A program made the position numbers and the translations under genes. From Nevskia sp. (GTDB lineage Bacteria; Pseudomonadota; Gammaproteobacteria; Nevskiales; Nevskiaceae), in the NCBI GenBank assembly GCA_031291075.1, contig JARLJS010000151.1, forward strand, positions 62,001 through 126,000: 64,000 nucleotides of DNA, read 5' to 3'. Shown in pieces: positions 6,590 through 41,816 of this stretch. A model generated the notes under the pieces. It made no database searches. It was not told the DNA's origin and saw nothing but the letters and a program-made list of their open reading frames with translations. Within the stretch, counting starts at the first letter, position 1. The number at the start of each line of letters is the position of its first letter.

Positions 6590-6600
6590 CGACAATGTTG
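6590..6600. promoter_or_regulatory. Candidate operator, CAACANTGTTG family (one mismatch)
   Basis: CGACAATGTTG, one mismatch from the palindrome CAACANTGTTG found in several promoters of this window. It lies 55 bases before the thiolase start, in the 136-base gap behind the P450 gene. On the minus strand the core AACAACATTGTCG matches the site at 32234-32246 at 12 of 13 positions. Confidence 0.45.
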
Positions 6601-6672
6601 TTGATTACTGTGTAACCGTGTCGACGGTATGCCTGTATCGGACGCGGCAAGCGGCGTTCGCGGGCCGATTGC

Positions 6673-8238
6673 CTATTGCTTGGCTCCCGTGAACGGATAC
6701 GAGCCCATGAATCCCGCCTTGACCTTGCCGCTCATCTGGTTGCCTTCGATGACGCCGGAGAATTCCACCTTGAGCTTCATCGGCTTGGTCACATGATTGA
6801 CCCAGCGGATGTTGTTTCCTTCCAGCTTGATGTCCGTGACCGGCGTGGTTACGCCCTGTCCCGTCTGGGTTCCGCTCAATTCGCCTCCGGCAAGCGTGAG
6901 TACCAGGGTGGAGGGCTGGGGACCGGTCGGACCCTTGACGACGACGTTCCAGGTTCCCTCCACGGTAGCAGGCATTGTCGGCGTCGCCGGCGTCGCCTCG
7001 ACCTTCTTCTCCTCTTTCTTCGGGGCCGCCGGGCGATGCCCCGGGCGGGTAAAGACGGGCATCGCATCCCATCCGCGAACGGTGGATGTCGACATCAGCA
7101 CCGCATTGTCGTAGTCCACCTCCCATTCGGGGAAGCGCTTGATCACCTCCTCCAGGGCCACGCGTCCTTCCAGGCGCGCAAGCGCCGAGCCCAGGCAGTG
7201 GTGGATGCCAAAGCCGAACACCATGTGCGGCGGCATCGGGCGGTGGATGTTGAAGCGGTCGCCCGCCTCATAGCGCCGCTCGTCGCGGTTGGCGGACGCG
7301 ATCAGGAACAGTATGGTGCTGCCCTTGGGGATCTTTTGGCCATGGACCTCGACGTCGCGGTTCACGAACCGGCCGACCTGGGGGCCGGGCGGCTCGAAGC
7401 GCAGGATTTCCTCGATCGCGGCCTGCGCCAGCGCCGGGTTTGCCGCGATCTGGCGGCGCTGATCCGGGTGCTCGGCCAGCACCTTGCCGGTCCAACCGAT
7501 CAGCCGGTTGGTGGTCTCGTTGCCGGCGCCGGCGATCATGTTGACCATCGCCAGGATTTCCTCGCGCGTAAGTTTGCGTAGGGTGCCGGTCTCGTCCTTG
7601 AACTCGGTATTGAGCAATTCGGTCATCAGATCGTCGGAGGGGTGCTTGGTGCGCCACTCGACGTATTCGTCGAAGCTTCCGCCCATCGTGTGGTCCACGC
7701 TGTACGCCATCGGCTTGCCGGCCTCGGTGCGCAGGGCCGTGTCGGCCTGCAGGCGCACGGCTTCCAGGTCCTTCTCGGGGATGCCCAGGAGCATGCCGAT
7801 CACGCGCATCGGCATCTGGGCGCCGAGATCGCCCACGAAATCGAACCGGTCGGCACCGACCAGGGGGTCGAGGCAGCGCGCGCAAAATTCGCGGATCCTG
7901 GGTTCCAGGGCATTCATGCGCTTGGGCGTGAACACCTTCGCCACCACCCCGCGGTGGACGGTATGCAACGGTGGGTCCTCCATGATGAACACGCCCCGGG
8001 GGAACCGGCTATCGGACTTGATGATCTCCAGGATGTCACCGCGTCCCGAGATGTAGGTCTCGCGGTCCATCAGGCCGCGCTCGCAGTCCTCGAACCGGCT
8101 GACGGCGTAGAAATCGTATTCCGCGTTGTAGTACAGCGGCGCTTCGTCGCGCAGGCGCTTGTACGTCGGGTAGGGGTTCTGCCTGATATCGACCCGGTAA
8201 GGATCAAACAGGATAGGGTTGCTGTCGTTTGTGCTCAT
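6673..8238 (-). CDS. Cytochrome P450 with C-terminal fused beta-rich domain
   Basis: 521 residues, about 110 longer than a usual soluble bacterial P450. The P450 core (1-400) has the I-helix AGAGNETT (236-243), the ExxR motif EEILR (276-280) and the haem loop FGFGIHHCLG with Cys348 as ligand; it is a cytosolic class I monooxygenase needing a ferredoxin. A charged, Pro/Ala-rich linker (about 400-425, KKEEKK) leads to a domain at 426-521. About 60 of its 96 residues are identical by eye to the stand-alone protein at 49683-49979. A related copy ends the molybdenum hydroxylase at 21053. No ferredoxin is adjacent. It is divergent from the TetR gene at 8525, its likely regulator. Start ATG 8238. 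Confidence 0.93.
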   Translation of the reverse strand: MSTNDSNPILFDPYRVDIRQNPYPTYKRLRDEAPLYYNAEYDFYAVSRFEDCERGLMDRETYISGRGDILEIIKSDSRFPRGVFIMEDPPLHTVHRGVVAKVFTPKRMNALEPRIREFCARCLDPLVGADRFDFVGDLGAQMPMRVIGMLLGIPEKDLEAVRLQADTALRTEAGKPMAYSVDHTMGGSFDEYVEWRTKHPSDDLMTELLNTEFKDETGTLRKLTREEILAMVNMIAGAGNETTNRLIGWTGKVLAEHPDQRRQIAANPALAQAAIEEILRFEPPGPQVGRFVNRDVEVHGQKIPKGSTILFLIASANRDERRYEAGDRFNIHRPMPPHMVFGFGIHHCLGSALARLEGRVALEEVIKRFPEWEVDYDNAVLMSTSTVRGWDAMPVFTRPGHRPAAPKKEEKKVEATPATPTMPATVEGTWNVVVKGPTGPQPSTLVLTLAGGELSGTQTGQGVTTPVTDIKLEGNNIRWVNHVTKPMKLKVEFSGVIEGNQMSGKVKAGFMGSYPFTGAKQ

Positions 8239-8307
8239 GGTGAATGCCTCACGGTTGGAAGGTCAGGCGTCCCGCGGTGCTTGGAGGTCCCGGGGCAGGC
8301 GGCCATA

Positions 8308-8331
8308 TGATACATGGTGACTCACAGTATC
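8308..8331. promoter_or_regulatory. Candidate operator between P450 and TetR genes
   Basis: TGATACATGGTG at 8308-8319 followed by GTATC at 8327-8331 forms an imperfect inverted repeat in the 286-base divergent promoter region. The first half matches at 11 of 12 positions TGATACATCGTG, which begins the perfect palindrome before the PQQ dehydrogenase (18916-18932). It is likely bound by the adjacent TetR protein, but this is inference. Confidence 0.4.
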
Positions 8332-8524
8332 GGCGCGCCGCGAAAGCGCTGTCAACGCGCCCGGTGCGGCCGACGCACTGCTGCTGTGTGGCAGGGCTGG
8401 TACGAGGCGTCGTCGCCAGGGATGGCAAGGGCATTTTGCTAATGTATGCGGATATCCACATGGGCACGCGCCGGCGACGACGATGAAGGGCGGCGGGTCG
8501 AAGGTTCTTGAGGTGAATGGGAAA

Positions 8525-9238
8525 ATGAAGAAGCCTCGCGCAAGGCGGACGGGCGATTTGTCCGGGGCGGCGCCGAAGCGCTCTCCGGCGCAGTCGGCAT
8601 CCAAGCCGGTCGACAAGGTCGGCCCCCCCGGCCTGTCTCATCGAGGCAAGACGGCGCCGGCACCGCTGGATACCCGGATGATCCGCTCCCGCGATGCCCT
8701 GCGCCGGGGATTGCTGGCCTTGCTCGAGCGAAAGCAGTTCGAGCAGATCACGATCCGTGACATTGCCGCCGAAGCCGGAGTCGGTTATGCAACGTTCTTT
8801 CGGCACCATCCTTCGAAAGAGGATCTGCTCGGCGCCATCGCCGCGGAGGAGATCGCGCAGTTGATGGAGCTGACCCTGCCGCTGCTGGATTCACGCGATA
8901 CCAGCATCTCCTGTCTGGCGCTGTGCACTTACATCGATCGCCACAGGACGCTGTGGTCGGCCCTGCTTGCTGGCGGTGCCGCCGCGACCTTGCGGGCCGA
9001 ATTCATCCGGCTCGCCAAGGAGGGGGCGTCCAGGGTGCGCTCCAGCCGCTGGATCCCGGTCGAACTGGGCGCCGTTTATGGCGTGGCCGCGACCATCGAG
9101 ATCCTGGCGTGGTGGCTGCACCAGCCTGCCGGAGCCTATTCGGTGGAGCAGGTTGCCGGGTATCTCGATCGCCTGGTCGTTGCACCGGCGACCGCGGCGG
9201 ATCAACGACCGGAGCCGGGTCGGCGCAACAGGCCTTGA
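8525..9238 (+). CDS. TetR/AcrR family transcriptional regulator
   Basis: 237 residues from the ATG at 8525, chosen because GAGGTG sits at good spacing; an in-frame ATG at 8483 would add 14 residues. A basic, disordered N-terminal tail of about 50 residues precedes a TetR helix-turn-helix (about 75-97, ITIRDIAAEAGVGYATFFRHH). The ligand-binding part shows the same LWS.LL.GGAA..LRAEF and ILAWWL segments as the TetR at 50071, so the two are paralogues. It is divergent from the P450 gene and probably represses it. Convergent with the FAD enzyme gene, with a gap of only 6 bases. Confidence 0.9.
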   Translation: MKKPRARRTGDLSGAAPKRSPAQSASKPVDKVGPPGLSHRGKTAPAPLDTRMIRSRDALRRGLLALLERKQFEQITIRDIAAEAGVGYATFFRHHPSKEDLLGAIAAEEIAQLMELTLPLLDSRDTSISCLALCTYIDRHRTLWSALLAGGAAATLRAEFIRLAKEGASRVRSSRWIPVELGAVYGVAATIEILAWWLHQPAGAYSVEQVAGYLDRLVVAPATAADQRPEPGRRNRP

Positions 9239-9244
9239 AAGCCC

Positions 9245-10912
9245 TTAAGCCTGCGTCCCTTCGGCAATGGCATGTCGCGCCGCCAGGTAGCCCCAGGTCA
9301 GCGCGGGGCCGATGCTCCCTCCGGGACCTACCTCCACGCCGCCCATAACCGAAGCGGTGGAGGTTCCGGTTGCGTAGAGTCCCGCGATCACGGTGCCGTC
9401 CGGCCGCAGTACGCGCGCGTGGGTATCGGTCAGCAAGCCGCCGTAGGTGCCCACGTCCCCGGGATAAAGCTGCACCGCGTAGAACGGGCCCCGGTCGATG
9501 GCGCCGAGCGTGTTGGATGGTTTGTGCAGGGGGTCGCCCACCCAGCGGTCATAGGGGTGGTCTCCGCGCTGGAAGTCCTCGTCACGACCGCTGCCGACGA
9601 AGCGGTTGAAGCGCTCGATCGTCGCTCGCAGCCGCGCTCCCTCCAGGCCGCACTGGGCGGCCAGCTTCTCGAGCGTGTCGCCCTGGCGCAGGAACTTCTC
9701 CTGGCTCCAGGATGGCGGCTTGCGGGTTCCCGGCATGGTGCCGGCAAGCATGTACGTGCACAGGTATTGGCTGTCGAAAACCATCCAGCTCGGCACGGCC
9801 GGCGCGGTCCGGTTGTGTTCCAGCATCCGGCGGCTGAACTCGGGATGTGAGCTGGCCTCGTTGGCGTAGCGGACCCCGGACTGGTCGACCACGATGGCGT
9901 GCGGCTTGCAGATATCGTTCTGCATCCCGGCCTGCAGCAGCTTGTCGGCGCTGCCCGGCGGGAGCGCGATCTGCATGCCGATGCGCTCGGACATCTGGGC
10001 GACCGCCGCGCCGATGCGCAGGCCTTCCTCGATCATGTCGCCGGTGTCCTCGGCAATCGTGCTGGACCACTGAGCCAGGGTTCCCGGAATGTAGCGGTCG
10101 AGCAGGCGCTGATTGCGCGCGAAGCCGCCTGCATCGATGAGCACCCCCAGGCGCGCGGCTATGCGGTGCTCGGCCTGGCCTTGGTTGACCAGAACGCCGG
10201 TCACGCGGCCTTCTTCCACGACCAGTTGCCGCACGGCGGTGTCCAGGCGGATTTCGGCGCCCGCCTTGAGCGATGCGTACAGAAGCTGACCCTGCAGCGC
10301 CTGTCCCGCGGTGCGCCGCTGGCGACCGGTCAGCTTGTCCGCGACGGTGCGGCCAATGATGTGGGCGAGTACCTTTTTTGCCGTCCAGCTGCGCTTGAGC
10401 AGCGGTAGCTGCATCGCTTCGTCCAGGTTGGCAGGCAGCGGCAGAAAACCGGGGCGCAGCCTGGCCGCCCACTCGCCCAGCCGATTGATGTCGAACAGTT
10501 CGGACACCACGGCCCGGCCCGGTACCGACGCGCCGGGGGCATCATAGTAGTCGGGCCACGATGGGATGCGGCGCAGCCGGATGCCCTGATCGGCCAGGAA
10601 GTCGATCATTTTGGGCGCCTGCTCGGCATAGGTGCAGCGGCGGGCGCGGCTGGCGCCGGGCCAGTCGTCGCGCTCGCCGACTACTGCGTCCAGATAGGCG
10701 GTGGCCGCCTCCAGGCTGTCGACGACGCCCGCATCCTTCATGTAACGGTTGTTGGGGATCCACATGACGCCGCCGGACGCCGCGGTGGTGCCGCCGGCGA
10801 GGCCCGACTTCTCGAGAATCAGGACGCTCCTGCCGGCCGCGCGCAAGGCCAGCGCTGCGCACATCGAGCCACCGCCGCTGCCGACCGCCACGAAGTCGAA
10901 GGTCTGGTCCAT
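9245..10912 (-). CDS. FAD-dependent dehydrogenase, 3-ketosteroid delta1-dehydrogenase-like
   Basis: 555 residues. The N-terminal Rossmann motif GSGGGSMCAA (11-20), then EKSGLAGGTTAASGGVMW, and the C-terminal block PGDVGTYGGLLTD and GLYATG, are typical of the FAD_binding_2 family that includes 3-ketosteroid delta1-dehydrogenases and fumarate-reductase-like enzymes. Such enzymes introduce a double bond next to a ring ketone. The frame is open far upstream, but the family start is the ATG at 10912. It lies 17 bases after the SDR gene in a leftward operon. Paralogue of 38391-40082. A steroid substrate is plausible but not proven; related enzymes act on other cyclic ketones. Confidence 0.85.
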   Translation of the reverse strand: MDQTFDFVAVGSGGGSMCAALALRAAGRSVLILEKSGLAGGTTAASGGVMWIPNNRYMKDAGVVDSLEAATAYLDAVVGERDDWPGASRARRCTYAEQAPKMIDFLADQGIRLRRIPSWPDYYDAPGASVPGRAVVSELFDINRLGEWAARLRPGFLPLPANLDEAMQLPLLKRSWTAKKVLAHIIGRTVADKLTGRQRRTAGQALQGQLLYASLKAGAEIRLDTAVRQLVVEEGRVTGVLVNQGQAEHRIAARLGVLIDAGGFARNQRLLDRYIPGTLAQWSSTIAEDTGDMIEEGLRIGAAVAQMSERIGMQIALPPGSADKLLQAGMQNDICKPHAIVVDQSGVRYANEASSHPEFSRRMLEHNRTAPAVPSWMVFDSQYLCTYMLAGTMPGTRKPPSWSQEKFLRQGDTLEKLAAQCGLEGARLRATIERFNRFVGSGRDEDFQRGDHPYDRWVGDPLHKPSNTLGAIDRGPFYAVQLYPGDVGTYGGLLTDTHARVLRPDGTVIAGLYATGTSTASVMGGVEVGPGGSIGPALTWGYLAARHAIAEGTQA

Positions 10913-10929
10913 CGTCGGGCTCTCCCTCC

Positions 10930-11667: not shown

Positions 11668-11739
11668 GATCTCCTCCGCTGTGTGGCGTTGTTGTCCATA
11701 TTCGGGCCAAGGCATCGCCGCGAATGCCGGGGTGAGGCC

Positions 11740-12507: not shown

Positions 12508-12605
12508 CGGACTTCTCTTGGTCGAAATTTTGAGCAAGGGTGATTTGCCGACCCTCTGTTCGTCACCGCCGTGTCCGCATGTTTCGCAGGATCGCGGGAG
12601 ATAGT

Positions 12606-12616
12606 CAACACTGTTG
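12606..12616. promoter_or_regulatory. Candidate operator CAACACTGTTG
   Basis: An exact match to the palindrome CAACANTGTTG in the 245-base divergent region between the EthD-like gene (start 12507, leftward) and the ferredoxin-SDR-P450-amidohydrolase operon (start 12753). It is about 100 and 137 bases from the two starts, so it could control both. Confidence 0.55.
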
Positions 12617-12752
12617 TAGTGTAACGCCAATTGTGAGATAAAGACCACGCCGCCGGGCAGAGGGCCGCAGCAGCAGAGCCGGCCCGCCTGCGGGTGGCTC
12701 CAAGCGGCGGGGACGTTGCCCGATCGCCGGATACCCTGGAGCAGGAGGAGTC

Positions 12753-12950
12753 GTGAAAATTCGCATCGACAAAGCCAAGTGCGTAGGTAACGCACGATGT
12801 GCAGCCGTATCGGCGGAGTTGTTTCCGTTGAACGACGAGGGCTATATCGCAGTCGAGGAAATCGACGTGCCGCCGGGCATGGAAGAAGCCGCGTTGCGCG
12901 GGGCGCGGGCCTGCCCGGAGCGCATCATCGTGGTCGAGGAAGGCAAGTAG
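12753..12950 (+). CDS. 3Fe-4S ferredoxin
   Basis: 65 residues, GTG start at 12753 behind GGAGGAG. The cysteines are Cys10 and Cys16 (CVGNARC, spacing C-x5-C) and the distal Cys54 in ACPER. The C-x5-C spacing leaves room for only three cluster cysteines, which marks the small single-cluster ferredoxins that feed electrons to bacterial class I P450s. It opens the operon that includes the P450 at 13869, its probable partner. No ferredoxin reductase is present anywhere in the window, so the reductase must come from elsewhere. Confidence 0.93.
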   Translation: MKIRIDKAKCVGNARCAAVSAELFPLNDEGYIAVEEIDVPPGMEEAALRGARACPERIIVVEEGK

Positions 12951-16529: not shown

Positions 16530-17012
16530 CTAGCGGGTATCGGCCCGCGCCGGCAACGGCTCGTCCGTGCCGGCTGTCGACATCGCCGTCAGCAGATTGC
16601 CGCGGACGCGCTCCAGCAGGGTCAGCAGCTGCGTTTGCTCGGATTTGTCGAGGCTGACGAAGGCGTCCCGTCGCGCCCGGTCGGCAATCGCCCAGATCCG
16701 CTTTACCAGGGGCAGAGCCGATTCGGTGAGGAACAGCCGGTGCGCCCGCCGATCCTCCGGGTCCGGCCTGCGCTCCACCCAGCCGTCGCGTTCCATCCGG
16801 TCCAGGTGTCGCACCAGCGTCATCGGATCGATGTCCGTCATCGACGCCAGCTGGGTCTGATTGATCCCCTGGTTGCGTTCCAGGTGAACGAGCACCTTGC
16901 ACTGTTCCAGGCTCAGGCCGAGCCTTGCCCGGGCCGCGTGCCGCTCGAAGTTTCTCGAGGTGAGTCGAGAGACATCCTTCAGCAGGAAGCCGAAATCGCG
17001 ATTGGCCGGCAT
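16530..17012 (-). CDS. MarR family transcriptional regulator
   Basis: 160 residues. A winged helix-turn-helix covers about 30-105: LSLEQCKVLVHLERNQGINQ, then the recognition helix TLVRHLDRMERDGW and the wing RRPDPEDRRAHRLFLT, all typical of MarR proteins, which bind palindromic operators as dimers and release on binding aromatic or CoA ligands. It is convergent with the amidohydrolase operon. A one-mismatch CAACANTGTTG site lies 76 bases before its start, so it could be autoregulated and be the factor for the whole operator family; the TetR proteins are rival candidates. Confidence 0.9.
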   Translation of the reverse strand: MPANRDFGFLLKDVSRLTSRNFERHAARARLGLSLEQCKVLVHLERNQGINQTQLASMTDIDPMTLVRHLDRMERDGWVERRPDPEDRRAHRLFLTESALPLVKRIWAIADRARRDAFVSLDKSEQTQLLTLLERVRGNLLTAMSTAGTDEPLPARADTR

Positions 17013-17087
17013 GGGGACAAAAGCGCCGTTGCGCCCGGATGTTTGTTCAAGTGGTTCGACAGCTGCGCGAAAGCATAGCAGTTATAC

Positions 17088-17098
17088 AACAACGTTGC
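17088..17098. promoter_or_regulatory. Candidate operator, CAACANTGTTG family (one mismatch)
   Basis: CAACAACGTTG differs from CAACANTGTTG at one position and contains the perfect 8-bp palindrome CAACGTTG. It lies in the 120-base gap between the TetR stop (17133) and the MarR start (17012), in the MarR promoter. Confidence 0.45.
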
Positions 17099-17132
17099 CT
17101 ATTTCAAACTCCAGGGCCGCCGCTGGACACGC

Positions 17133-17726
17133 TCAGGGGCCGGGTCTGCGCCCGCTGCGGATCGCTTCCTCGACCAGCTTGATCGCCCACACCGTCGCCC
17201 GGGTGGCGCTTTTGGGGTCGAGCAGCCATTCGCCCAGCATGCGCTCGTAGGTGGGCACGTTCCACAACACATCCAGCAATGCCGCCGCCATCAGCCGCTC
17301 AACCTGCGGCCAGTCGGGGGTCGCCCGTGTGACGGCTCCCAGCAGTGCACCACGGCGCGTCTGGTCGATCACCGCAAAGCTGGGATCCTTGACCGGCTCG
17401 GGCGAAACCGCGAATGAAGTCAGATACTCGAACAGGCGGCTGGTTACTTTGGCAAAATCCCGCAGTTCCAGTCCCTCGAGGTCGACCCCGGATTCCTCGA
17501 CCAACCGCTGCAGGATGGCATCGCGAAGCTTGCGCTCGGTGGAAAAATGGCGATGCACCGTGCGTTCGGTCACTCCCGCAAGCTCGCCGACGGCGCGGAA
17601 GGTGAGGCCCTGCCAGTCCCAGCGTGGAAGTTTATGGACGATCTTCACGCCGGCGGAAACGATGCGGCTGCGGGTTTCCTCCGCTTGCTGGCGCCGGAGC
17701 GGGCTGTTGTAGCTTCTGCGCTTCAC
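17133..17726 (-). CDS. TetR family transcriptional regulator
   Basis: 197 residues from a GTG at 17726 (CGGGA upstream); the open frame runs on to 18293, but that part overlaps the SDR gene antisense and carries no family similarity. The N-terminal DNA-binding domain has AEETRSRIVSAG and a recognition helix LAGVTERTVHRHFSTERKLRDAI, the TetR pattern. The rest is helical ligand-binding sequence without a recognised subfamily. It is divergent from the SDR at 17956 and probably controls it or its own promoter. It is separated from MarR by 120 bases. Confidence 0.85.
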   Translation of the reverse strand: MKRRSYNSPLRRQQAEETRSRIVSAGVKIVHKLPRWDWQGLTFRAVGELAGVTERTVHRHFSTERKLRDAILQRLVEESGVDLEGLELRDFAKVTSRLFEYLTSFAVSPEPVKDPSFAVIDQTRRGALLGAVTRATPDWPQVERLMAAALLDVLWNVPTYERMLGEWLLDPKSATRATVWAIKLVEEAIRSGRRPGP

Positions 17727-25879: not shown

Positions 25880-26421
25880 GGAATCAAATCTCTCTGTGGA
25901 GTCTTTGGTAAGTGCTGCACTCGATCGAAGCGACCACGGTTTGCGGGAAGTGGCGTTGCGCCAACGGGGCAAGAGCTGTGGTCATAGAATAGTTACTGTC
26001 AGTTATATGACGCTAATTGCGCGGGTGTGTCCTGGGAAAAGCCCATGCCGCATACGGAGATTGACCGGCTGCGCAATGAGAGTTGACCGGCGCCAAGGCT
26101 ACGGGAGGTGGCTCAAGCCTTGCTTTGCTGATCGTAAAGCGCCACATCAGTTCTCCGTTGGCTTGTAATAGGGCTTTGGTGTACTTGCACCACCGAACGT
26201 GCGGCAGGACCATCCCGCTGTCCGGCGAAGCTGCGAAACCCGTCGGCAGGCCGCAACGACGACGCTATCGACAATAGCACAACACTGGTGTTCAATACAC
26301 GGGCGGTCAATAACATGAAGCGCGGAATCGTGGACGCCGTGCCACGCGCGGCTTAGCGGTTTCAGAATCCAAAACGGCCTGCTTTCGCCGTGCGCGAGAC
26401 AAGATCGAGAGGAGAGGGTGG
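25880..26421. other. Intergenic region between the hydroxylase operon and the TonB receptor
   Basis: 542 bases separate the leftward CoxG-like gene and the rightward receptor gene. Short frames occur but none has a plausible ribosome site with family-like sequence. The only ordered element is the operator-like site at 26280-26292, about 130 bases before the receptor start. AT-richer stretches around 25985-26020 and 26265-26315 may hold the two promoters. Confidence 0.5.
26280..26292. promoter_or_regulatory. Candidate operator before the TonB receptor
   Basis: CAACACTGGTG is one mismatch from CAACANTGTTG, and the overlapping AACACTGGTGTT is itself an inverted repeat (AACAC/GTGTT). It is about 130 bases before the receptor start and would put uptake under the same regulator as the catabolic promoters. 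Confidence 0.45.
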
Positions 26422-29127
26422 ATGAAACGAAAGTTCGCCATTGCGGCCATCGCGTTGGGCATTAGCCTTGGCCTGGTGTCGACTTGCGCCTTCGGGCAGT
26501 CCAGCAGCAGCGGTGGCGGCGCGCAGTCCGGCGGCAGTGGCGGCAGCGACCTGGAAAAGTTGCTTTCGGGTGCCGGGGTGAGCACCGAGCCCGAGTCTTC
26601 GACATCGTCGTCTTCGTCGGGCGCTGCCTCCGCATCCTCGTCCTCGGGTGCGCAGGCGCAGAGCCCTGCCGCAGGGACGTCGCCGACGGCCGCACAGCCC
26701 GCTGCACCTGCGTCTCCGATCGGCCTGCCCACCACGGCGGCGGCCCCGCCGGCCCCGCAGACGGAGAGAGCGAATTCCAACCGCCTGGAGGAGATCGTCG
26801 TCACCGCCGAACGGCGCGAGGAGCGGCTGCAGGACGTTCCAATCTCCATTTCCGTTTTCACGCAGAAGCAGCTCGCCAATGCGAACATCAGCAATCCGAG
26901 CGACCTGGCGCTGTATACGCCGTCGCTGTCCGTGAACCCCCGCTTCGGCAGCGACAACGCCTCGTTCTCGATCCGCGGGTTCACCCAGGACCTTAGGACC
27001 ACGGCCTCGGTGGGGGTCTATTTCGCCGAGGTCGTCGCTCCGCGCGGGCAGAGTTCGCAGACCTCGGGCGACGGCGCCGCACCGGGCGAACTGTTCGACC
27101 TGCAAAACATCCAGGTGCTGAAGGGACCGCAGGGCACGCTGTTCGGGCGCAACACCACGGGCGGCGCGGTGCTGCTCGTTCCCAACAAGCCCGGCGACGA
27201 GTTGGAGGGCTATTACGAACAGTCGGTGAGCGACTACGACGGTTTCCGGGAACAGGGGGTGATCAATTTTCCGGTGACGCCGAACTTCAAGCTGCGCCTG
27301 GCCATCGACAAGAATCAGCGCGACGGCTACCTCACCAACGTCCTGAACATCGGCGCCAGTCGATTCGGCGACCTGAATGTCCTGTCCGCGCGTGCCAGCG
27401 CCCTGTGGAATATCACTCCTTCCGTCGACAACTACACGATCTACAGTTTTTCGGATTCGGACAACACAGGCAGTACCGCGCGCCTGTTCGCGTGTAATAC
27501 CGCCCCCACCGAGCTGTTCACCATCGCGATCAATGTCCTGGTCGGGCCAGGTTGCAGGGCGCAGCTTGCGGCCCAGGTCGCCAATGGCCAGAACGGGTTC
27601 TACGACCTCGAAAGTTCGATCAGGACGCCCATCACCGCGATTCACGAAAGGCGCGTGATCAATACCACCACCTGGCGCATCGACGACGCTCTCACCCTGA
27701 AGGATATCTTCGGCTTTGCGCACCTGCTGACCCAGAACGGCTCGTCGATATTCGGCACGCACTTCCACGAGTCGCTCGATGCCAACCCGAACCGGGAATG
27801 GAGCGCCGGAGCGTCCCTGGTCTCTCCGTACGAGCCGGTGACCAACCAAAACACCTTCGTGGAGGAGCTTCAGCTGCAGGGGCGCTCCTTCGCGGACAAG
27901 CTGCAGTGGCAGACCGGCGCCTATTTCGAGCACAGCCTGCCGAACGGGTACTCCGGCAACATCTCGGCCGACGTCATTTCCTGCCAGCTCTCCACCATCG
28001 AAGACCCCAATCCGGCCCACTTCAACTGCTTCGATCCAAGCTTCGGTCTGCTCGGCAGCGTCCTGTACCAGCAATACAAGCAGGACTATCTGAACCGGGC
28101 GGTGTACAGCCAGGCCACCTACAATTTCACCGATCAGCTCAGCGCGATCCTGGGGCTGCGCTATACCTGGGACAAGGCCAGCGGCTACGGCATCAAGACC
28201 CGGTACACGTTCGCGCTGATCACCGAGCTGGCACCCAGGATCCAGATCTCGACGCCCAACGTCGAAAGCCAGGCGCCCACCGGCCAGCTCGAGCTCAGCT
28301 ACAAGCCGATCGAGGGTGCGATGGTGTACGGGAAATATGTGCGCGGCTACCGTCAAGGCAGTATTGTCCTGGCGGCGGACCCCGGCCTCGATACGTTCAA
28401 GCCGGAACATATCAATTCCTACGAGTTCGGGGGGAAGGGCGAGTTCGGCGGCCCCGTGCCCGGCCAGTTGAACTTCGCGATCTTCTACAACGCCCTGGCC
28501 AACCAACAGTTACAGCTCGGGTACATCTCAACCGGGGCGGGCACGACCACGACGATCGTGAATGCGGGCAGGTCCGACGTCGCCGGAGCGGAGGCCGACG
28601 GCGTGTTCCAGCTCACCGATAGCCTGCGGTTGACGCTTTCATGGTCCCGCCTGATCACCAAGCTCGCCGAGGAGCAGAACGAAACCGCGAGAGTCGCGCA
28701 ATACGCCGGCTTTTTGGGTGGACTGTCGGTCACGCCGATCGCGATTCCGGGCGAAACCCTGCCGTTCGCGCCCAACCATGCGGAAGTCGCCACGCTGAGT
28801 TATCGACTTCCCATCTCCGAAGATTTTGGCCCGGTCGATGTCGCGGCAACCTACTCCTACGTCGGGACCATCCGGGCAGGCGCTTCGACGCAGACGCCCT
28901 ATGCGGAGCTGCCGGGTCATCCGCTGCTCAACCTCAACCTCAACTGGACATCGGTGTTCAACAAGCCGATCGACGTCTCACTTTTCGCCACCAACGTACT
29001 GAACAGGGAATATACGACCTACGTCTCAGCGACGTACTCCACGCTGGGATACGACAGTCGCATTGTCGGTGCGCCGCAAATGTTCGGCACGCGCCTGCGT
29101 TACAATTTTGGCGCCTACGCGCACTGA
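26422..29127 (+). CDS. TonB-dependent outer-membrane receptor
   Basis: 901 residues, ATG behind GGAGAGGGTGG. A signal peptide (KRKFAIAAIALGISLGLVSTCAFG) precedes an unusually long low-complexity stretch rich in Ser, Gly, Ala and Pro (about 25-115). Next comes the TonB-box-like EEIVVTAERRE, the plug (DVPISISVF to QVLKGPQGTLFGRNTTGGAV) and a 22-strand barrel ending in the aromatic strand RLRYNFGAYAH. The type is that of Sphingomonas- and Caulobacter-style receptors for carbohydrates, terpenoids or aromatics. Energy would come from a TonB system such as that at 55477-59657. It is convergent with the ligase gene and has an operator-like site upstream. Confidence 0.95.
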   Translation: MKRKFAIAAIALGISLGLVSTCAFGQSSSSGGGAQSGGSGGSDLEKLLSGAGVSTEPESSTSSSSSGAASASSSSGAQAQSPAAGTSPTAAQPAAPASPIGLPTTAAAPPAPQTERANSNRLEEIVVTAERREERLQDVPISISVFTQKQLANANISNPSDLALYTPSLSVNPRFGSDNASFSIRGFTQDLRTTASVGVYFAEVVAPRGQSSQTSGDGAAPGELFDLQNIQVLKGPQGTLFGRNTTGGAVLLVPNKPGDELEGYYEQSVSDYDGFREQGVINFPVTPNFKLRLAIDKNQRDGYLTNVLNIGASRFGDLNVLSARASALWNITPSVDNYTIYSFSDSDNTGSTARLFACNTAPTELFTIAINVLVGPGCRAQLAAQVANGQNGFYDLESSIRTPITAIHERRVINTTTWRIDDALTLKDIFGFAHLLTQNGSSIFGTHFHESLDANPNREWSAGASLVSPYEPVTNQNTFVEELQLQGRSFADKLQWQTGAYFEHSLPNGYSGNISADVISCQLSTIEDPNPAHFNCFDPSFGLLGSVLYQQYKQDYLNRAVYSQATYNFTDQLSAILGLRYTWDKASGYGIKTRYTFALITELAPRIQISTPNVESQAPTGQLELSYKPIEGAMVYGKYVRGYRQGSIVLAADPGLDTFKPEHINSYEFGGKGEFGGPVPGQLNFAIFYNALANQQLQLGYISTGAGTTTTIVNAGRSDVAGAEADGVFQLTDSLRLTLSWSRLITKLAEEQNETARVAQYAGFLGGLSVTPIAIPGETLPFAPNHAEVATLSYRLPISEDFGPVDVAATYSYVGTIRAGASTQTPYAELPGHPLLNLNLNWTSVFNKPIDVSLFATNVLNREYTTYVSATYSTLGYDSRIVGAPQMFGTRLRYNFGAYAH

Positions 29128-30974: not shown

Positions 30975-32201
30975 TCAGGCGATCGCGCCGGAGGATTTGA
31001 GTTTCTCGATGCGCTCCCACTCCAGGCCCAGTTCCAGCAGCAGCGCTTCGGTGTGCTCGGATGCCTGGGGTGCGCGCGTGGTCCTGACCGGCTCGTGGTT
31101 GAACTGTACTGGGCCGCGCACGAGCTTGATGGGCGCGCCGCCGTCGCTCGCCTCCACCTCGAACAGCATGTCGTTGGCCAGGGCCTGCTCGTCGGTGGCC
31201 AGCTCCAGCAGGCTCTGGATCGGCGCCCATTGGCCGGTCATCGTCTTCAGATGCTGCCGCCAGTATTCGAACGGCTGTTTGGCGAATGCCGCCGCGATCA
31301 GCTCGCCGGCCTCCTTCCAGTGTTGCATCAGCGCCTTGGCCTCGCAGAAGCGGGGATCGTCCGCCGCCTCCGGGACGCCCAGGTGGGCGAAGGTATCGCG
31401 GATGTGCGGCCCCGGCGTGAGGATGCACAGGTTGATGGTGCCGCCGTCGGAGGTGCGGTAGTTGCCGGTGAGGGGATTGCCCGGATTGCCTCCCGATGAC
31501 GGCATGCGGTTGCGCATCACCTTGCCGGCCTCGATGAAGAGGTCGATGGCGCTGCCGGCGGCCCACCAGGCCGTGCTGAGCAGCGATACGTCCAGCTCCA
31601 GCGCTTCCCCCGTGCGTTCCCGGTGAAACAGCGCCGCGGCGATACCGCCGGCGATATTCATGCCGCCGATGGAGTCACCGAACGCGGCGATGCCCTGCGT
31701 GAGCGGCGCTCCCAGCTCCTCCGGCGACATGGCGTGCCCGATGCCGCTGCGCGACCAGAAGGCGGTGCCGTCGAAGCCGCCGACATCGCGTTCCGGCCCC
31801 TTGTCCCCGTAGGCGCTGCCCCGCGCGTAGATGATCCTCGGATTGACCGCACGGATGTGCTCGACGTCGAATTTCATCCTGCTGCGCTGGGACGGCAGGT
31901 AGTTGGTGAGAAACACGTCGGCGGTCCTGGCGATCTCGTAGATCAGTTCGATTCCCTCCGCCGTGGAGATGTCGATGCCGACGCTGCGCTTGCCGCGATT
32001 GGGGTGCTCCATCATGGTATGGCGAAGCGGGTTGATCTTCATTCCGCCCATGTTGATGAAGCCGCGCTGCGTGTCGCCGCGCTGCGGGTGCTCGACCTTG
32101 ATCACGTCCGCGCCCCAGTCGGCCAGGATGCCGCCCGCCGCGGGCACGAACGTGAATTGCGCAACCTCGAGGACCCGTACACCTTTCATCACGTGGGTCA
32201 T
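30975..32201 (-). CDS. Class III (CaiB/BaiF) CoA-transferase
   Basis: 408 residues from the ATG at 32201 behind GGAGGAAGG; upstream frame to 32249 rejected. Typical features are the N-terminal [49 protein letters not shown], and the [15 protein letters not shown] block containing the conserved active-site Asp. These enzymes move CoA between carboxylic acids (formyl, succinyl, carnitine, bile-acid type). First gene of an operon with the small protein and a ligase, which together would prepare CoA esters. A CAACANTGTTG operator lies about 35 bases upstream. Confidence 0.92.
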
Positions 32202-32233
32202 GCGCCTTCCTCCCTGCAGCCGGTACAGTAATA

Positions 32234-32246
32234 AACAACATTGTTG
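32234..32246. promoter_or_regulatory. Candidate operator CAACATTGTTG before the CoA-transferase operon
   Basis: An exact CAACANTGTTG palindrome at 32236-32246, within AACAACATTGTTG, about 35 bases before the CoA-transferase start and inside the 105-base gap behind the extended SDR gene. The surrounding AT-rich bases (ATAAACAACATTG, GCATATATAA) look like a promoter. Confidence 0.55.
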
Positions 32247-32306
32247 CATATATAAGGGACGGCTGCCAGAACCGGCCTCATGCCGCTGGGCGCCGCCGTC
32301 CCCGCG

Positions 32307-33329
32307 TCATGCCGGTGCCGGGTGCGGCGACTGCCGGTCTCTCCGCGCAAACCAGGCGACCGCGTCCTTGACGGTCTCGGCGATGGGGCGCGGCTTCCAG
32401 TCCAGGTCCCCGCGGGCTTTGCCGTGGTCCATTTCGCGGAAGACGTCGGACAGGAAAATGGCGTCGGCGCGGATCAGGTAATCCTTGCGGCGCAGCAGCT
32501 TGAACACGCGCTCGATGGTCGATGCGGCGAGTTGCGCAACTGGTAGTGGCATCACCAGCGGCGGCTTATGGCCGAGTTCGGCCGCGGCGAGGGTGTAGAA
32601 GTCCCGGTTGCTGATGTACTCGTTGGCGATGATATAGCGCTCGCCGGTCCTGCCGCGCTGTTCGGCTAGGAGGGCCGCCTCGGCCACGTCGCGGATATCG
32701 ACGGTCGGTGCGCCCGCTTCCCAGGTCAATCGAACCTTGCCCCGCGCCACATCCCACAGCATCCGCCCGTGAGGCGTGGGCTGGTAATCATCCGGCCCGT
32801 AGGTATTGGCGACACACAGGGCGACACCCGGAAGCCCGCGCTCCCGGCAGTACGCCAGGAATCTGCGCTCGGCCTCCAGCCGGATCAGGATGTAGGCCGG
32901 TGCCCGATCCCGCCAGTTGAACTCGATCTCCTCCGTCACCGGACCGTCGGCGTTGAGGCCCAGGGTCCCCATGCTGCTGGTGAAGATGAACCTGCGGATA
33001 TTGCAGGCCAGAGCGGTGTCCATGGTGTTGACCAGGCCTTCAACATTGTTGCGGTACATCGGAGTGGTGTCGGTCAGCCAGAACCGCGGGTCAACAACAC
33101 AATGAAACACGCTGCCACAGCCTGCCATCGCGGCATGCAAGGACGGCGGATCGAGCACATCACCGTAATGGCGCTCGACGGGCAGGCCGTCGAGCGCTTC
33201 GGTCCGGCTGGTCTTGCGCAGCAGCACCCTCACCCTGCGGCCGCGACGCGCCAGCAGGCGCGCCGTGTGGCTACCGACGAAGCCGCTGGCCCCGGTGACG
33301 AGTACTGGCTGCTCGGGCGGATCGTGCAT
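32307..33329 (-). CDS. NAD-dependent epimerase/dehydratase (extended SDR, 3beta-HSD-like)
   Basis: 340 residues from the ATG at 33329. Extended-SDR cofactor motif TGASGFVGSHTARLL near the N-terminus, conserved VFHCVVDPRFW and YRNNVEGLVN, then FTSSMGTLG. The catalytic Tyr is in PAYILIRLEAERRF, but the residue four on is Arg where YxxxK would have Lys. Family members oxidise 3beta-hydroxysteroids or reduce dihydroflavonols and sugars. It lies 26 bases after the ligase gene in a leftward pair. Function could be oxidoreductase with a changed catalytic base; the Lys-to-Arg change leaves activity uncertain. Confidence 0.82.
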   Translation of the reverse strand: MHDPPEQPVLVTGASGFVGSHTARLLARRGRRVRVLLRKTSRTEALDGLPVERHYGDVLDPPSLHAAMAGCGSVFHCVVDPRFWLTDTTPMYRNNVEGLVNTMDTALACNIRRFIFTSSMGTLGLNADGPVTEEIEFNWRDRAPAYILIRLEAERRFLAYCRERGLPGVALCVANTYGPDDYQPTPHGRMLWDVARGKVRLTWEAGAPTVDIRDVAEAALLAEQRGRTGERYIIANEYISNRDFYTLAAAELGHKPPLVMPLPVAQLAASTIERVFKLLRRKDYLIRADAIFLSDVFREMDHGKARGDLDWKPRPIAETVKDAVAWFARRDRQSPHPAPA

Positions 33330-38380: not shown

Positions 38381-38390
38381 GGCCGGCGCG

Positions 38391-40082
38391 GTGACTGGCT
38401 TCGACGAGGTGTTCGACTTTGTCGTCGCAGGCAGCGGCGGCGGCTCCATGTGCGCGGCGCTGGTCGCCCGCGCCAGCGGTAAATCGGTCCTGATCCTGGA
38501 AAAAACCGGCCTCGTGGGTGGGACCACGGCACGCTCCGGCGGCGTGATGTGGCTGCCGAACAACCCGTTCATGCAGCGTGACGGCGTCGAGGACAGCCTC
38601 GAGCGCGCGACGGCCTACCTGGAAGGGCTGCTCGACGGGCAGGTCGACGCTCCGGGCTCGACGCCGGTCCGCCGCCGCCAATATCTGATCGAAGCGCCGC
38701 GCATGCTGGACTTCCTCGGGCGTCAGGGCATCGAGCTCGACCGGGTCAAGGATTGGCCGGACTACTATGACGAACGCCCCGGCGGATCCGTACCGGGCCG
38801 GACCGTGGTGGCCCGGCTGTTCGATGTCAATGAACTGGGCTCGTGGTCAAGCAGGCTCAGGCCCAGCTTCGTGCAGATTCCGCTGCCGGCGTCCCTGGAG
38901 GAGATGCTGGAGCTGCCGGCCTACAAGCGCTCGTGGCGGGTGAAACTGCTGATGCTGAAGCTGGTGCTGCGGGCGCTGATCGCCCGGCTGACGGGCAGGC
39001 GCTGGGTGGCGGGAGGAGCCGCCCTGCAGGGCCGCATGCTGCAGGCGGCGCTGCGTGCCGGCACCGAGATCCGCACCGACTCGCCGGTGTCCGAGCTGAT
39101 CGTCGAGGACGGTGTGGTGAAGGGTTTGGTGACCACGAAAGATGGAGGCCCGTGGCGGGTCGGGGCGCGCCAGGGCGTGCTGGCGAACGCAGGCGGCTTT
39201 GCGCGCAACCAGTCCATGCGCGATCGCTACCTGCCGGGAACGTCGGTGCAATGGACCCTGGCGGCGCCCGGCGACACCGGCGAGATGATCGAGGAAATGA
39301 TGCGGCACGGCGCCGCCGTGGCGCAGATGGACGAGCGGGTCGGCAACCAGTTGACCATCCCTCCCGGCATGGAGGACAGCGAGATCAAACCCACCGCGCA
39401 GTCGATGACGGCGGCCCCGCACGCCATCCTGGTGGATCAGACCGGCGTGCGCTACATGAACGAGGGCGGCTCCTACATGGCTTACGTCAAGGCCATGATG
39501 GAGCGCAACAGGACGGTGCCCGCCGTGCCGAGCTGGGCGGTGTTCGACAGCCAGTACATGGCCAAGTACATGCTCGCGGGCACCATGCCGGGCAAGGCCA
39601 AGCCTCGGCGCTGGTACGAGGAGGGCTACCTGAGGAAGGCGGACAGTATCCACGACCTGGCCTGCCAGCTCCGCCTCCAGCCCGCCACCCTGCTGGCGAC
39701 GATCGCGCGCTTCAACCGCTTCGTGGCCGGTAACCATGACGAGGACTTCCACCGCGGCGAGCGCGCCTACGACCGCTGGCTGGGCGACGAATTCCAGCAG
39801 CCCTCGCCGGCGCTGGGTGCCATCGATAAGCCGCCGTACTACGCGGTGCCGGTGTATCCCGGCGACGTCGGCACCTTCGGCGGCGTCGTCACGGACGAAT
39901 TCGCGCGCGTGCTGCGCAGCGACGGCAGCGTGATCGCGGGGCTCTACGCCACGGGGGTGTCGACCGCGTCCGTGATGGGGCGCTTCTATCCCGGCGCCGG
40001 CTGCAGCATCGGCCCATCCTTCGTCTGGGGCTACGTCGCGGCCTGCCACGCCATGGGGACGGGCGTCGACCCGCAGCGCTGA
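38391..40082 (+). CDS. FAD-dependent dehydrogenase, 3-ketosteroid delta1-dehydrogenase-like
   Basis: 563 residues from a GTG at 38391 (10 bases after the ligase stop; the long upstream frame overlaps the ligase and is rejected). FAD motif AGSGGGSMCAALVA, EKTGLVGGTTARSGGVMWLPNN, the inner FAD contact (NAGGFARNQ) and the C-terminal PGDVGTFGGVVTDEFARVL and GLYATGVSTASVMG blocks match the paralogue at 9245-10912 along the whole length. It would desaturate a ring ketone or CoA thioester, with electrons going to a quinone or similar acceptor. The two copies probably serve different intermediates. Confidence 0.85.
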   Translation: MTGFDEVFDFVVAGSGGGSMCAALVARASGKSVLILEKTGLVGGTTARSGGVMWLPNNPFMQRDGVEDSLERATAYLEGLLDGQVDAPGSTPVRRRQYLIEAPRMLDFLGRQGIELDRVKDWPDYYDERPGGSVPGRTVVARLFDVNELGSWSSRLRPSFVQIPLPASLEEMLELPAYKRSWRVKLLMLKLVLRALIARLTGRRWVAGGAALQGRMLQAALRAGTEIRTDSPVSELIVEDGVVKGLVTTKDGGPWRVGARQGVLANAGGFARNQSMRDRYLPGTSVQWTLAAPGDTGEMIEEMMRHGAAVAQMDERVGNQLTIPPGMEDSEIKPTAQSMTAAPHAILVDQTGVRYMNEGGSYMAYVKAMMERNRTVPAVPSWAVFDSQYMAKYMLAGTMPGKAKPRRWYEEGYLRKADSIHDLACQLRLQPATLLATIARFNRFVAGNHDEDFHRGERAYDRWLGDEFQQPSPALGAIDKPPYYAVPVYPGDVGTFGGVVTDEFARVLRSDGSVIAGLYATGVSTASVMGRFYPGAGCSIGPSFVWGYVAACHAMGTGVDPQR

Positions 40083-40083
40083 G

Positions 40084-40094
40084 CAACACTGTCG
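40084..40094. promoter_or_regulatory. Candidate operator, CAACANTGTTG family (one mismatch)
   Basis: CAACACTGTCG, one mismatch from CAACANTGTTG, lies immediately after the FAD-enzyme stop and 35 bases before the E2-like gene. It suggests a separate promoter for the acyltransferase inside the 46-base gap. Confidence 0.4.
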
Positions 40095-40128
40095 GTTACC
40101 AATATGGCATCCATGTATACTGGAAAAT

Positions 40129-40935
40129 ATGACTGAAAAGACTGCCGCTCTGCCGTGGCCGCCGGACGATCTGTCAACCTACGGCCCGGTCGAGGCGAAG
40201 CCGGTCAGCCGCGCCCAGCACTACGTGGGGCGCGTCATGCATCGCAACTGGACGCTGATCCCCCACGTCACTCATCACGATGACGCCGACATCACGGTGT
40301 TCGAGCAACGCCGCAAGGACTGGAATGCCGCGCATCCGGAGCGGAAGCGCTCGCTGCTGTCGGCCCTGGTAAAGGCGTCGGTGGAGGCGCTGCAGCGCTA
40401 TCCGCGCTTCAACAGCGCCCTGACTGCCGACGGTGCCACCTTGATGCGCAGGGGATACTTCCATATCGGCGTCGCGGTGGACGTGCCGGACGGCCTGCTG
40501 GTGCCGGTGCTGCGCAACTGCGACAGCAAGAGCATCGACGAGATCAACACGGAGGTGGCCCGCATTTCGGACAAGGCCCGCACCAAGGGGCTTGCCCTGG
40601 CGGAAATGTCCGGCGGCTGCTTCACGCTTTCGTCCTTGGGGCATATCGGGGGCACCGGCTTCACCCCGATCATCAACGCGCCCGAGGTGGCGATCCTGGG
40701 TGTGTGCCGGGCGCGGGAGCGCTTCCTTCCCGATGCCCAGGGCCGGCCGGTCCTGCGGCAACTGCTGCCGCTGTCCTTGAGCTATGACCATCGTGTCATC
40801 AATGGCGCCGACGCGGCACGTTTTCTGCGCGCCATCGCACAGTGGCTTGACACGTATGAGTTCGGAAATGGCACGGAGCCCGGGGAGAATCCATGCGTGA
40901 ACGCGCCTTTTGCAGAACATAAAGCGGTTAATTAG
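40129..40935 (+). CDS. Orphan 2-oxoacid dehydrogenase E2 catalytic-domain acyltransferase
   Basis: 268 residues covering only the chloramphenicol-acetyltransferase-like catalytic domain of dihydrolipoamide acyltransferases. It has IPHVTHHDDADIT near the N-terminus, INAPEVAILGVCRARER, and the active-site LSYDHRVINGADAARFL with the catalytic His. There is no lipoyl domain and no E1-binding domain, and no E1 or E3 gene is nearby. It therefore probably transfers an acyl group between CoA esters, or acts with a lipoyl protein encoded elsewhere. Start ATG 40129 lacks a strong ribosome site. Last structural gene before the TetR gene. Confidence 0.87.
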   Translation: MTEKTAALPWPPDDLSTYGPVEAKPVSRAQHYVGRVMHRNWTLIPHVTHHDDADITVFEQRRKDWNAAHPERKRSLLSALVKASVEALQRYPRFNSALTADGATLMRRGYFHIGVAVDVPDGLLVPVLRNCDSKSIDEINTEVARISDKARTKGLALAEMSGGCFTLSSLGHIGGTGFTPIINAPEVAILGVCRARERFLPDAQGRPVLRQLLPLSLSYDHRVINGADAARFLRAIAQWLDTYEFGNGTEPGENPCVNAPFAEHKAVN

Positions 40936-40968
40936 CTACAATTGGCATATTTTCGAGGGTGCTCACAC

Positions 40969-41649
40969 ATGCCGGACGATGTTTCCTTCGCCGAAAGAAA
41001 GACGCAGAAGGGCAAGCGCAACCCGGAGAACACGCGCGCAACCATTCTGCGCGCGGCGGGAAAGCTGCTGGCCAAGGTCGGCCCGGAAGGCTTGAGCGTG
41101 TCGCAGGTTGCGCAGCTCGCCGGCGTGAACCGGGGCACGGCCTACCAGCACTTTCCGACCCGCGAGCTGCTGCTCAAGGCGACTACCGCCTGGGTCAGCG
41201 AACAGCTCAATCGCGCGGTGTTCGGCGAGGAGGCTACGGCGAGGGACGCGGTGCTCGACCCGCAGAAGGTGGCGGAACACCTCACCGTATTTGCCATGGA
41301 AAACCCGGAACTGGGCCGCGTCTGGCTGATGGAGGTGCTCAGCTCGAGCCGGCCGACGGGCGATCCGTTCTGGAACCAGTACCGCGAACGCCTGGAAGGA
41401 TTCGCCAAATCGGACCTGGCCCAGCCCGGCATCGACGTCGACGTGCATTCCGTCGTGATGCTGATCGGCACCTTCCTGTGGCCCGTATTCGCCAGGGCGC
41501 ACGTGCGCACGGCCAAGGAACGCCAGCAGATGGCCAAGCGGTTTTCCAATGAAATGCTGCGGCTGAGCCTGCACGGCACCATGCGGCCGGAGAAGTTTGC
41601 GGAATTGAACGCCAAGCTGAGCAAGACGCCGAGCGGGCGTCTGCGCTGA
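40969..41649 (+). CDS. TetR family transcriptional regulator
   Basis: 226 residues from the ATG at 40969 (GAGGG upstream; the frame to 40942 adds nothing family-like). DNA-binding helices: NTRATILRAAGKLLAKVGPEGLSVSQVAQLAGVNRGTAYQHF (about 19-60), the standard TetR HTH; the C-terminal 150 residues form the ligand domain. It lies 33 bases after the E2-like gene and ends at a strong hairpin terminator. Probably regulates the 35-41 kb operon or the 41.9 kb operon beyond it; which cannot be told from sequence. Confidence 0.9.
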   Translation: MPDDVSFAERKTQKGKRNPENTRATILRAAGKLLAKVGPEGLSVSQVAQLAGVNRGTAYQHFPTRELLLKATTAWVSEQLNRAVFGEEATARDAVLDPQKVAEHLTVFAMENPELGRVWLMEVLSSSRPTGDPFWNQYRERLEGFAKSDLAQPGIDVDVHSVVMLIGTFLWPVFARAHVRTAKERQQMAKRFSNEMLRLSLHGTMRPEKFAELNAKLSKTPSGRLR

Positions 41650-41656
41650 GTCGCGA

Positions 41657-41682
41657 GCCGGCCCGGCGGCAGCCGGGCCGGC
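41657..41682 (+). terminator. Strong hairpin terminator
   Basis: A perfect 11-bp stem GCCGGCCCGGC / GCCGGGCCGGC with GGCA loop directly after the TetR stop (41649), followed by a short T-run (CCGTTTCC at about 41695). It probably ends the operon that began at 35274. Confidence 0.65.
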
Positions 41683-41785
41683 GCTACGGCTCCCCCGTTT
41701 CCTCAAAGTCCTGTCTGTGCCAGGGGCCGGCGCCCTGGCCCCGGGTACCCATTCGCGGCGCAACGCCGCACGGCGACAAAACTCA

Positions 41786-41816
41786 TCAACAGTGTTGACG
41801 ATCAATAGCCGTTGAT
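41786..41816. promoter_or_regulatory. Double operator upstream of the SDR-MaoC-SDR operon
   Basis: TCAACAGTGTTGA (41786-41798) is a perfect 13-bp palindrome and an exact CAACANTGTTG member. ATCAATAGCCGTTGAT (41801-41816) is an adjacent inverted repeat with 5-bp arms. They lie about 100 bases before the SDR start at 41918 and look like tandem regulator sites. Confidence 0.55.

Follow-up and report, generated by a model that had tools for sequence, protein, structure and literature searches.

A 19-bp Palindromic Operator in a Catabolic Island of Nevskia sp. and Its Candidate TetR-Family Regulator

A 64,000-nucleotide stretch of DNA from Nevskia sp. (positions 62,001 to 126,000 of contig JARLJS010000151.1; hereafter the window) contains repeated copies of an 11-bp motif, CAACANTGTTG, in the promoters of putative catabolic genes. 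Is this motif the operator of a single regulator, and which protein would recognize it? The initial annotation of the window considered one factor that governs genes for uptake, activation, and cleavage, and named a MarR protein and several TetR proteins as candidates. Here, we describe the motif as the core of a longer operator, and compare the regulators that may bind it. On the basis of sequence comparisons, we assign a probability of roughly 0.78 to the reading that the motif is a 19-bp operator of one TetR-family regulator. For this role, the protein encoded at positions 40969-41649 of the window is the strongest candidate, possibly acting together with a second copy encoded at C28:176231-176923. 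C28 designates the full contig, and the window corresponds to C28:62001-126000.

Clustering of a palindromic operator between genes

The window contains nine matches to CAACANTGTTG with up to one mismatch. Shuffled versions of the same DNA contain 0.88 matches on average and four at most (0/100 shuffles reach nine). Four cores are exact (starting at 12606, 32236, 33041, and 41787) and five contain one mismatch (6590, 17087, 26280, 40084, and 55569). The initial annotation had reported three exact copies, all in promoters. Their positions stand, but the count does not: the fourth exact copy (33041-33051) lies within an epimerase gene (32307-33329). The one-mismatch copies that had been noted ahead of the thiolase, MarR, TonB receptor, and E2-like (2-oxoacid dehydrogenase acyltransferase) genes were all recovered, with the MarR copy starting at 17087 instead of 17088. 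Our gene models also agree that all but two copies are intergenic, the exceptions being the core in the epimerase gene and the one at 55569 in a DUF3450 gene. These two coding cores are probably chance copies.

The genome assembly consists of 5,648,424 bases on 302 contigs, of which C28, with 195,082 bases, accounts for 3.5%. All eight exact copies of CAACANTGTTG in the genome are located on this contig; the reversed control pattern occurs once genome-wide. With nine matches in the window against 0.88 expected, and 8/8 exact copies on C28, the case for a motif family in promoters is stronger than first stated. When one mismatch is allowed, the genome contains 54 cores (reversed control, 23). 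Of these, 24 are on C28, and 21 of the 24 fall into the 10.3% of the contig that are intergenic according to a home-made codon model with 164 predicted genes. From the 30 cores on other contigs, 26 were listed and 21 of these were examined: 17 are coding, 4 are intergenic, and the best score against the operator matrix described below is 14.3. The same gene caller applied to C28 returned 20 intergenic and 4 coding cores (Fisher p = 2e-5). A genome-wide comparison of intergenic and coding copies, as it had been proposed, finds intergenic enrichment on C28 and mostly coding copies among those examined on other contigs.

Alignment of the sites on C28 extends the core to a 19-bp palindrome that approximates TAAwCAACAnTGTTGwTTA. 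Flanking columns that were not used for site selection are conserved, with T at position -4 (together with its mirror) in 33/42 half-sites and A or T at position -1 in 36/42. Because columns outside of the selection core are conserved, we conclude that the operator spans about 19 bp. The final matrix was built without iteration from 22 sites on C28 and used with a score cut-off of 15; an iteratively refined matrix drifted toward weaker sites and was not used for the final counts. The final matrix detects 27 non-overlapping sites scoring at least 15 on C28, which span about 160 kb. As many as 26 of them are intergenic and one overlaps a modelled start codon. A set of 272 column-permuted matrices detects 0.55 sites on average and 21 at most. 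The counts on C28 are partly circular because the matrix derives from 22 sites of the same contig; the tests on other genomes described below are not. Ten of the 27 sites are located in the window, all of them between genes, and the two coding cores in the window score below 15. To the sites first reported, we add two that contain two mismatches (47833-47851 and 55095-55113) and a weaker one at 47885.

Regulators that may bind the operator

We then asked which regulators accompany the operator in related bacteria. To this end, matches to TMRWCAACANTGTTGWYKA with up to two mismatches were counted in 85 genomes of the order, with the reversed pattern as a control. An orthologue of the IclR-family protein encoded at C28:142930 (E below 1e-100) is present in 11/85 genomes, and all 11 contain 7-19 matches (control 0-3). 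The other 74 genomes have a median of 2 matches; three reach at least seven (G042 with 16, G043 and G054 with 7 each against a control of 2 each). The TetR protein from the window is present in the same 11 genomes and also in G027 and G069. From distribution alone, therefore, both IclR and TetR are candidates.

The promoters of the two regulators contain different motifs. A de novo search, to which no matrix was supplied, of the 250-bp promoters of 30 TetR homologues returned TnAACAnCAnTGnTGTTnA, a CAACAnTGTTG palindrome, in 20/30 sequences (score 243 vs 67-75 for three shuffles). These 30 loci are the best matches in 30 of the 35 genomes with a hit, and none of them is among the 85 genomes of the order. 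Scanning public genomes with an IclR alignment provided 65 loci. The same kind of search on 55 IclR promoters outside of the order set returned a different palindrome, TATAGAATnnnATTCTATA, in 37/55 sequences (score 591 vs 101 for one shuffle) and in 24/30 in a smaller run. At p <= 0.01, TATAGAATnnnATTCTATA is found in 45/64 IclR promoters and the CAACA type in 14/64. In most IclR homologues from Gamma- and Alphaproteobacteria, this highly conserved 19-bp palindrome precedes the match start by about 25-155 bp (for example at -103, -81, and -85 in L092, L084, and L139, respectively), and it occurs away from IclR in 2/65 loci only (L096 and L098). TATAGAATnnnATTCTATA is probably the operator of IclR itself.

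Three further observations concern TetR. First, when the C28 matrix was applied to the 330 bp upstream of 51 TetR loci, 24 of them had a site at p <= 0.01 (200 letter shuffles); in 18 of these 24, the centre of the site lies 36-133 bp ahead of the nominal start. G105, a Novosphingobium metagenome bin, has a single pattern match (control also 1), which is located in the TetR promoter. Second, the segment VNRGTAYQHF, the recognition helix by analogy to the family, is kept in 48/51 homologues, the second C28 copy among them. Third, among 50 IclR-bearing genomes, the 34 with TetR (E <= 1e-40) have a median of 5.5 matches, with 16/34 at seven or more, and the 16 without TetR have a median of 1.5 and a maximum of 5. 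In several genomes, raw counts mean little because the reversed-pattern control is high (control of 9 against 10 matches in G087, 21 against 10 in G118, and 14 against 8 in G090). The difference between the groups with and without TetR corresponds to p = 1.3e-4, and to p = 0.002 after subtraction of each genome's reversed-pattern control, values that overstate the case for TetR because related genomes are not independent.

The protein itself contains a TetR_N helix-turn-helix domain (PF00440, 42.9 bits vs a cut-off of 24). Its AlphaFold model (mean pLDDT 83.9) shows a TetR-type fold, and the 50 Foldseek matches listed are TetR-type by title (TM 0.40-0.62 by query). Among the TetR candidates that the initial annotation had named, this protein is the best fit by distribution and by the promoter motif of its homologues, and these comparisons support its assignment to the operator. 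The copy encoded at C28:176231-176923 is 64% identical, and both it and the first copy (102969 in C28 numbering) match one and the same set of homologous loci.

Apart from the relatedness of the genomes, several observations weigh against this assignment. No significant upstream site was found in 27/51 TetR loci, and in the Nevskia genome itself the TetR gene has no site in the 330 bp immediately ahead of it either (p = 0.39); a weak site precedes the presumed operon instead. G120 encodes TetR and has zero pattern matches. In G027 and G069, TetR is present but the regulon is not (2 and 0 matches, respectively). Within the order, IclR tracks the sites slightly better (11/11) than TetR does (11/13). 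Summed over the 50 IclR-bearing genomes, those with TetR contain 281 matches (control 73) and those lacking it 30 (control 4), so that TetR is not associated with a higher ratio to the control. One genome classed as being without TetR, G130, has a weak TetR match (E 2.9e-21). Furthermore, the two TetR copies on C28 are indistinguishable by sequence, and the operator centre AACAnTGTT is identical to that of a published IclR consensus.

This last similarity leads to the alternative that survives best, namely that the IclR-family protein (C28:142930-143748, outside of the window) binds CAACAnTGTTG and that the TATAGAATnnnATTCTATA-type palindrome is a variant site. The high match counts in all 11 genomes with an IclR orthologue, compared with only 3/74 others reaching seven, favour this idea. 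In addition, some sites in Sphingobium (L118, L119, and L137) look intermediate, and the close relatives L080-L083 contain a site upstream of IclR, although the gene that it controls there may be the divergent neighbour. The published operator consensus of IclR-family group 2, TGRAACAN1-2TGTTYCA (PMC8222616), shares only the centre with our sites: the consensus has R in the next outward position, where our sites have C in 41/42 half-sites (selected at up to one mismatch to a core that holds this C). IclR promoters in our data carry TATAGAATnnnATTCTATA more often than the CAACA type, which does not prevail there, and none of the 16 IclR-bearing genomes without TetR exceeds five matches. In view of these promoter and distribution tests, we consider binding of IclR to the operator unlikely.

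Far less probable is that another regulator from the island, such as the TetR protein encoded at C28:27177-27839, a further TetR, or an AraC protein, is the factor. An exact core is located about 122 bp upstream of TetR 27177. However, among 60 related genomes, which were searched for this protein and for MarR, close homologues occur only in G028 (61%) and G001 (58%), and the candidate was rejected as improbable. Except for TetR 176231, none of the other regulators from the island has a homologue in all sampled relatives, of which a part of each genome was sampled.

The proposal that the MarR protein (16530-17012) is the regulator fares slightly worse still. A one-mismatch copy precedes its gene, and homologues with 52-60% identity occur in 7/60 relatives. 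Two of these carry the regulon (G001 and G035), but five do not (G003, G006, G007, G011, and G012). In the other three of the five regulon-bearing relatives included in this search, no close MarR was found (G023, best 33%; G028, best E 1.5e-5; G048, no match); the regulon genomes G066, G068, G073, G076, and G077 were outside of its scope. On this distribution, MarR was rejected as improbable.

Finally, we give almost no credence to the idea that the copies are chance or codon-driven repeats without a regulatory role: such palindromes do occur in coding DNA, as in G042, which has neither TetR nor IclR and whose matches are read as chance because all five inspected sites (4/16 matches and one exact core) are coding, but here the exact copies are confined to 3.5% of the genome, 26/27 matrix sites are intergenic, the flanks are conserved, and sites are abundant in island-bearing relatives.

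The putative regulon and its possible substrate

How might the TetR-family protein work? By analogy to its family, a TetR dimer would sit on the 19-bp palindrome in the promoters of about two dozen operons and block transcription. The pathway substrate or a CoA-thioester intermediate would bind to the C-terminal domain and cause release from DNA. Since the presumed operon of the E2-like and TetR genes carries a weaker site, TetR would regulate itself as well. Operators precede about two dozen operons across the catabolic island of about 160 kb. Those in the window are listed in Table 1.

Table 1. Operators, Isolated Cores, and the Presumed TetR Operon in the Window
Feature	Position	Strand	Remarks
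Operator TGATCGACAATGTTGTTGA	6586..6604		Score 23.6; ca. 60 bp ahead of thiolase gene 5285-6535 (-), assigned by Pfam
Operator TAGTCAACACTGTTGTAGT	12602..12620		Exact core 12606-12616, score 25.8; between EthD-like operon (-) and 65-aa ferredoxin-like open reading frame 12753-12950 (+), followed by SDR gene; "EthD-like" is the label of the initial annotation (no Pfam match at 0.001), "ferredoxin-like" was judged by eye
Operator TATACAACAACGTTGCCTA	17083..17101		Score 23.6; ca. 80 bp ahead of MarR gene 16530-17012 (-, Pfam), just past the stop of TetR-like gene 17133-17726 (-), which is below the Pfam cut-off but similar to TetR at 40969
Weaker operator AGCACAACACTGGTGTTCA	26276..26294		Score 17.1; ca. 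137 bp ahead of TonB-dependent receptor gene 26422-29127 (+)
Operator TAAACAACATTGTTGCATA	32232..32250		Exact core, score 29.4 (top on contig); ca. 40 bp ahead of CoA-transferase III gene 30975-32201 (-); overlaps the start of the longest open reading frame of this gene (to 32249)
Exact core without flanks	33041..33051		Within epimerase/3beta-HSD-like gene 32307-33329 (-)
Weaker operator TGAGCAACACTGTCGGTTA	40080..40098		Score 18.7; ca. 40 bp ahead of E2-like gene (40129); the next gene encodes the TetR regulator
2-Oxoacid dehydrogenase acyltransferase catalytic core (E2-like)	40129..40935	+	PF00198, E 1.2e-67; first gene of presumed TetR operon
TetR-family regulator	40969..41649	+	PF00440; reading frame may start at 40942; best candidate for the operator-binding factor
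Operator TCATCAACAGTGTTGACGA	41783..41801		Exact core, score 27.2; ca. 126 bp ahead of SDR gene (41918 or 41855, +) of SDR-MaoC-SDR operon
Operator TAATCATCATCGTTGATTA	47833..47851		Two core mismatches, strong flanks, score 25.9; divergent promoter of aldehyde dehydrogenase 46251-47714 (-) and P450 48011-49294 (+)
Second weaker operator	47885..47903		Score 17.2; same divergent promoter
Operator TAGTCAACAACGGTGTGTA	55095..55113		Score 18.9; ca. 200 bp upstream of TauD/TfdA-type dioxygenase gene 54089-54904 (-)
One-mismatch core	55569..55579		Within DUF3450 gene

Outside of the window, sites on C28 precede, among others, genes for TetR, acrylyl-CoA reductase, an MFS transporter together with the pair of a VOC-like protein and indolepyruvate ferredoxin oxidoreductase, acyl-CoA dehydrogenase with CoA-transferase, a Rieske oxygenase with IclR, SDR proteins, a ferredoxin-reductase-like protein, 2-oxoacid dehydrogenase E1, WS/DGAT, a double acyl-CoA dehydrogenase, and AraC with a ChsH2-Ltp2-like pair. 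The putative regulon includes the presumed TetR operon, the promoters of MarR, the IclR region, AraC, and TetR 27177, as well as enzymes that range from uptake to beta-oxidation. Because it spans other regulators together with enzymes, it resembles a master switch above local regulators. The proposal that one factor governs genes for uptake, activation, and cleavage is well supported.

At two places, operators are paired at a distance of about 50 bp in one divergent promoter (C28:172090/172139 and window 47833/47885). Such pairs may reflect cooperative or two-sided control.

The genes of the island also contain hints at the substrate. A P450 has CYP150A6 as its best solved match (E 2e-153). 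A 3-ketosteroid-delta-1-dehydrogenase-like protein (window 38391-40082) matches the structure 7p18 best (E 8.5e-86) and is below the NCBIfam cut-offs; no matrix site scoring at least 15 was found ahead of its operon. These two proteins and the ChsH2/Ltp2-like pair suggest, as judged by similarity, a steroid- or terpenoid-like polycyclic substrate.

Three loci deserve separate description. The 2-oxoacid dehydrogenase complex is split: C28:163188-165408 encodes E1 alpha, an E1-beta-like protein, and a separate lipoyl-like domain of 76 aa (by eye), whereas the E2 catalytic core (268 aa) is encoded in the window about 60 kb from the E1 genes. An operator precedes both parts. At C28:45080-49075, a VOC-like protein (by eye) precedes an indolepyruvate ferredoxin oxidoreductase of 1161 aa; an operator lies ahead of both. 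Just outside of the window, C28:128043-129065 (-) contains a 340-aa frame that combines a zinc-ribbon/helix-turn-helix segment with a TetR-type domain. The former segment presumably resembles IS1595, and the TetR-type domain shares 55% identity over 176 aa with the TetR protein encoded at 8525-9238 of the window. Either this frame is a genuine fusion, or the remnant of a transposase lies in frame ahead of a TetR gene.

Comparison with known regulators

In a study on estradiol degradation, the list of regulators that have been connected to the breakdown of steroids in bacteria was called very short (PMC8700777). Within the set of papers covered, our search for the operator letters returned, judged by title, no bacterial operator of this kind and one title on Fur from Enterococcus faecalis (PMC6056675). 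If the assignment to TetR is correct, a single operator matrix would identify the operons that share one programme, both in this large catabolic island and in fragmented relatives. The operator would also provide a possible part for biosensors. Since motifs in their own promoters separate the co-inherited TetR and IclR proteins, the roles of both would be directly testable.

KstR and KstR2 are TetR repressors of cholesterol catabolism in Actinobacteria, and KstR itself belongs to its own regulon. The system proposed here is similar in that it would rely on one TetR repressor whose palindromic operator recurs in many promoters, its own included, across a large gene set of the steroid type. It differs in its host and in its operator: the KstR motif is TnnAACnnGTTnnA, with a spacing of 2 vs 3 here. 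Tentatively, and at slightly less than even odds, we propose that this undescribed TetR is the proteobacterial counterpart of KstR. Both the regulator and its operator would be conserved across Solimonas-type bacteria, other Gammaproteobacteria, Sphingobium, and Novosphingobium. Through approximately 27 operators in one genome, this TetR would control a programme for a steroid- or terpenoid-like polycycle, from uptake to beta-oxidation, beside an IclR protein with an operator of its own.

Two regulators from Proteobacteria provide further points of comparison. In Sphingobium sp. SHPJ-2, PheR is described as an IclR-family protein linked to phenanthrene, with a minimal motif GCAACG and binding reported at one promoter (PMC13273656). 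Like the candidate TetR, it is a single repressor tied to catabolic and TonB uptake genes; unlike it, PheR belongs to the IclR family and recognizes another motif. EdcR from Caenibius tardaugens is a TetR-like regulator connected to estradiol, with the proposed operator TnnCnnTACnAnTnGTAnnGnnA; the same paper also names KstR and KstR2 (PMC8700777). EdcR resembles our candidate in that it is TetR-like and regulates a steroid cluster of a proteobacterium, which contains genes for P450, MaoC, acyl-CoA dehydrogenase, lipid-transfer protein, VOC, indolepyruvate ferredoxin oxidoreductase, and TonB receptor; the VOC and indolepyruvate ferredoxin oxidoreductase names stand in the legend to the edc cluster (PMC8700777). 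Yet TnnCnnTACnAnTnGTAnnGnnA has no match in the window at up to two mismatches (0.30 expected), and the operator described here is a 19-mer with another core that occurs in about two dozen promoters. Next to KstR and EdcR as known TetR repressors of steroid catabolic genes, the protein encoded in this island would, judging from its sequence and its sites, be a further TetR regulator with a different operator.

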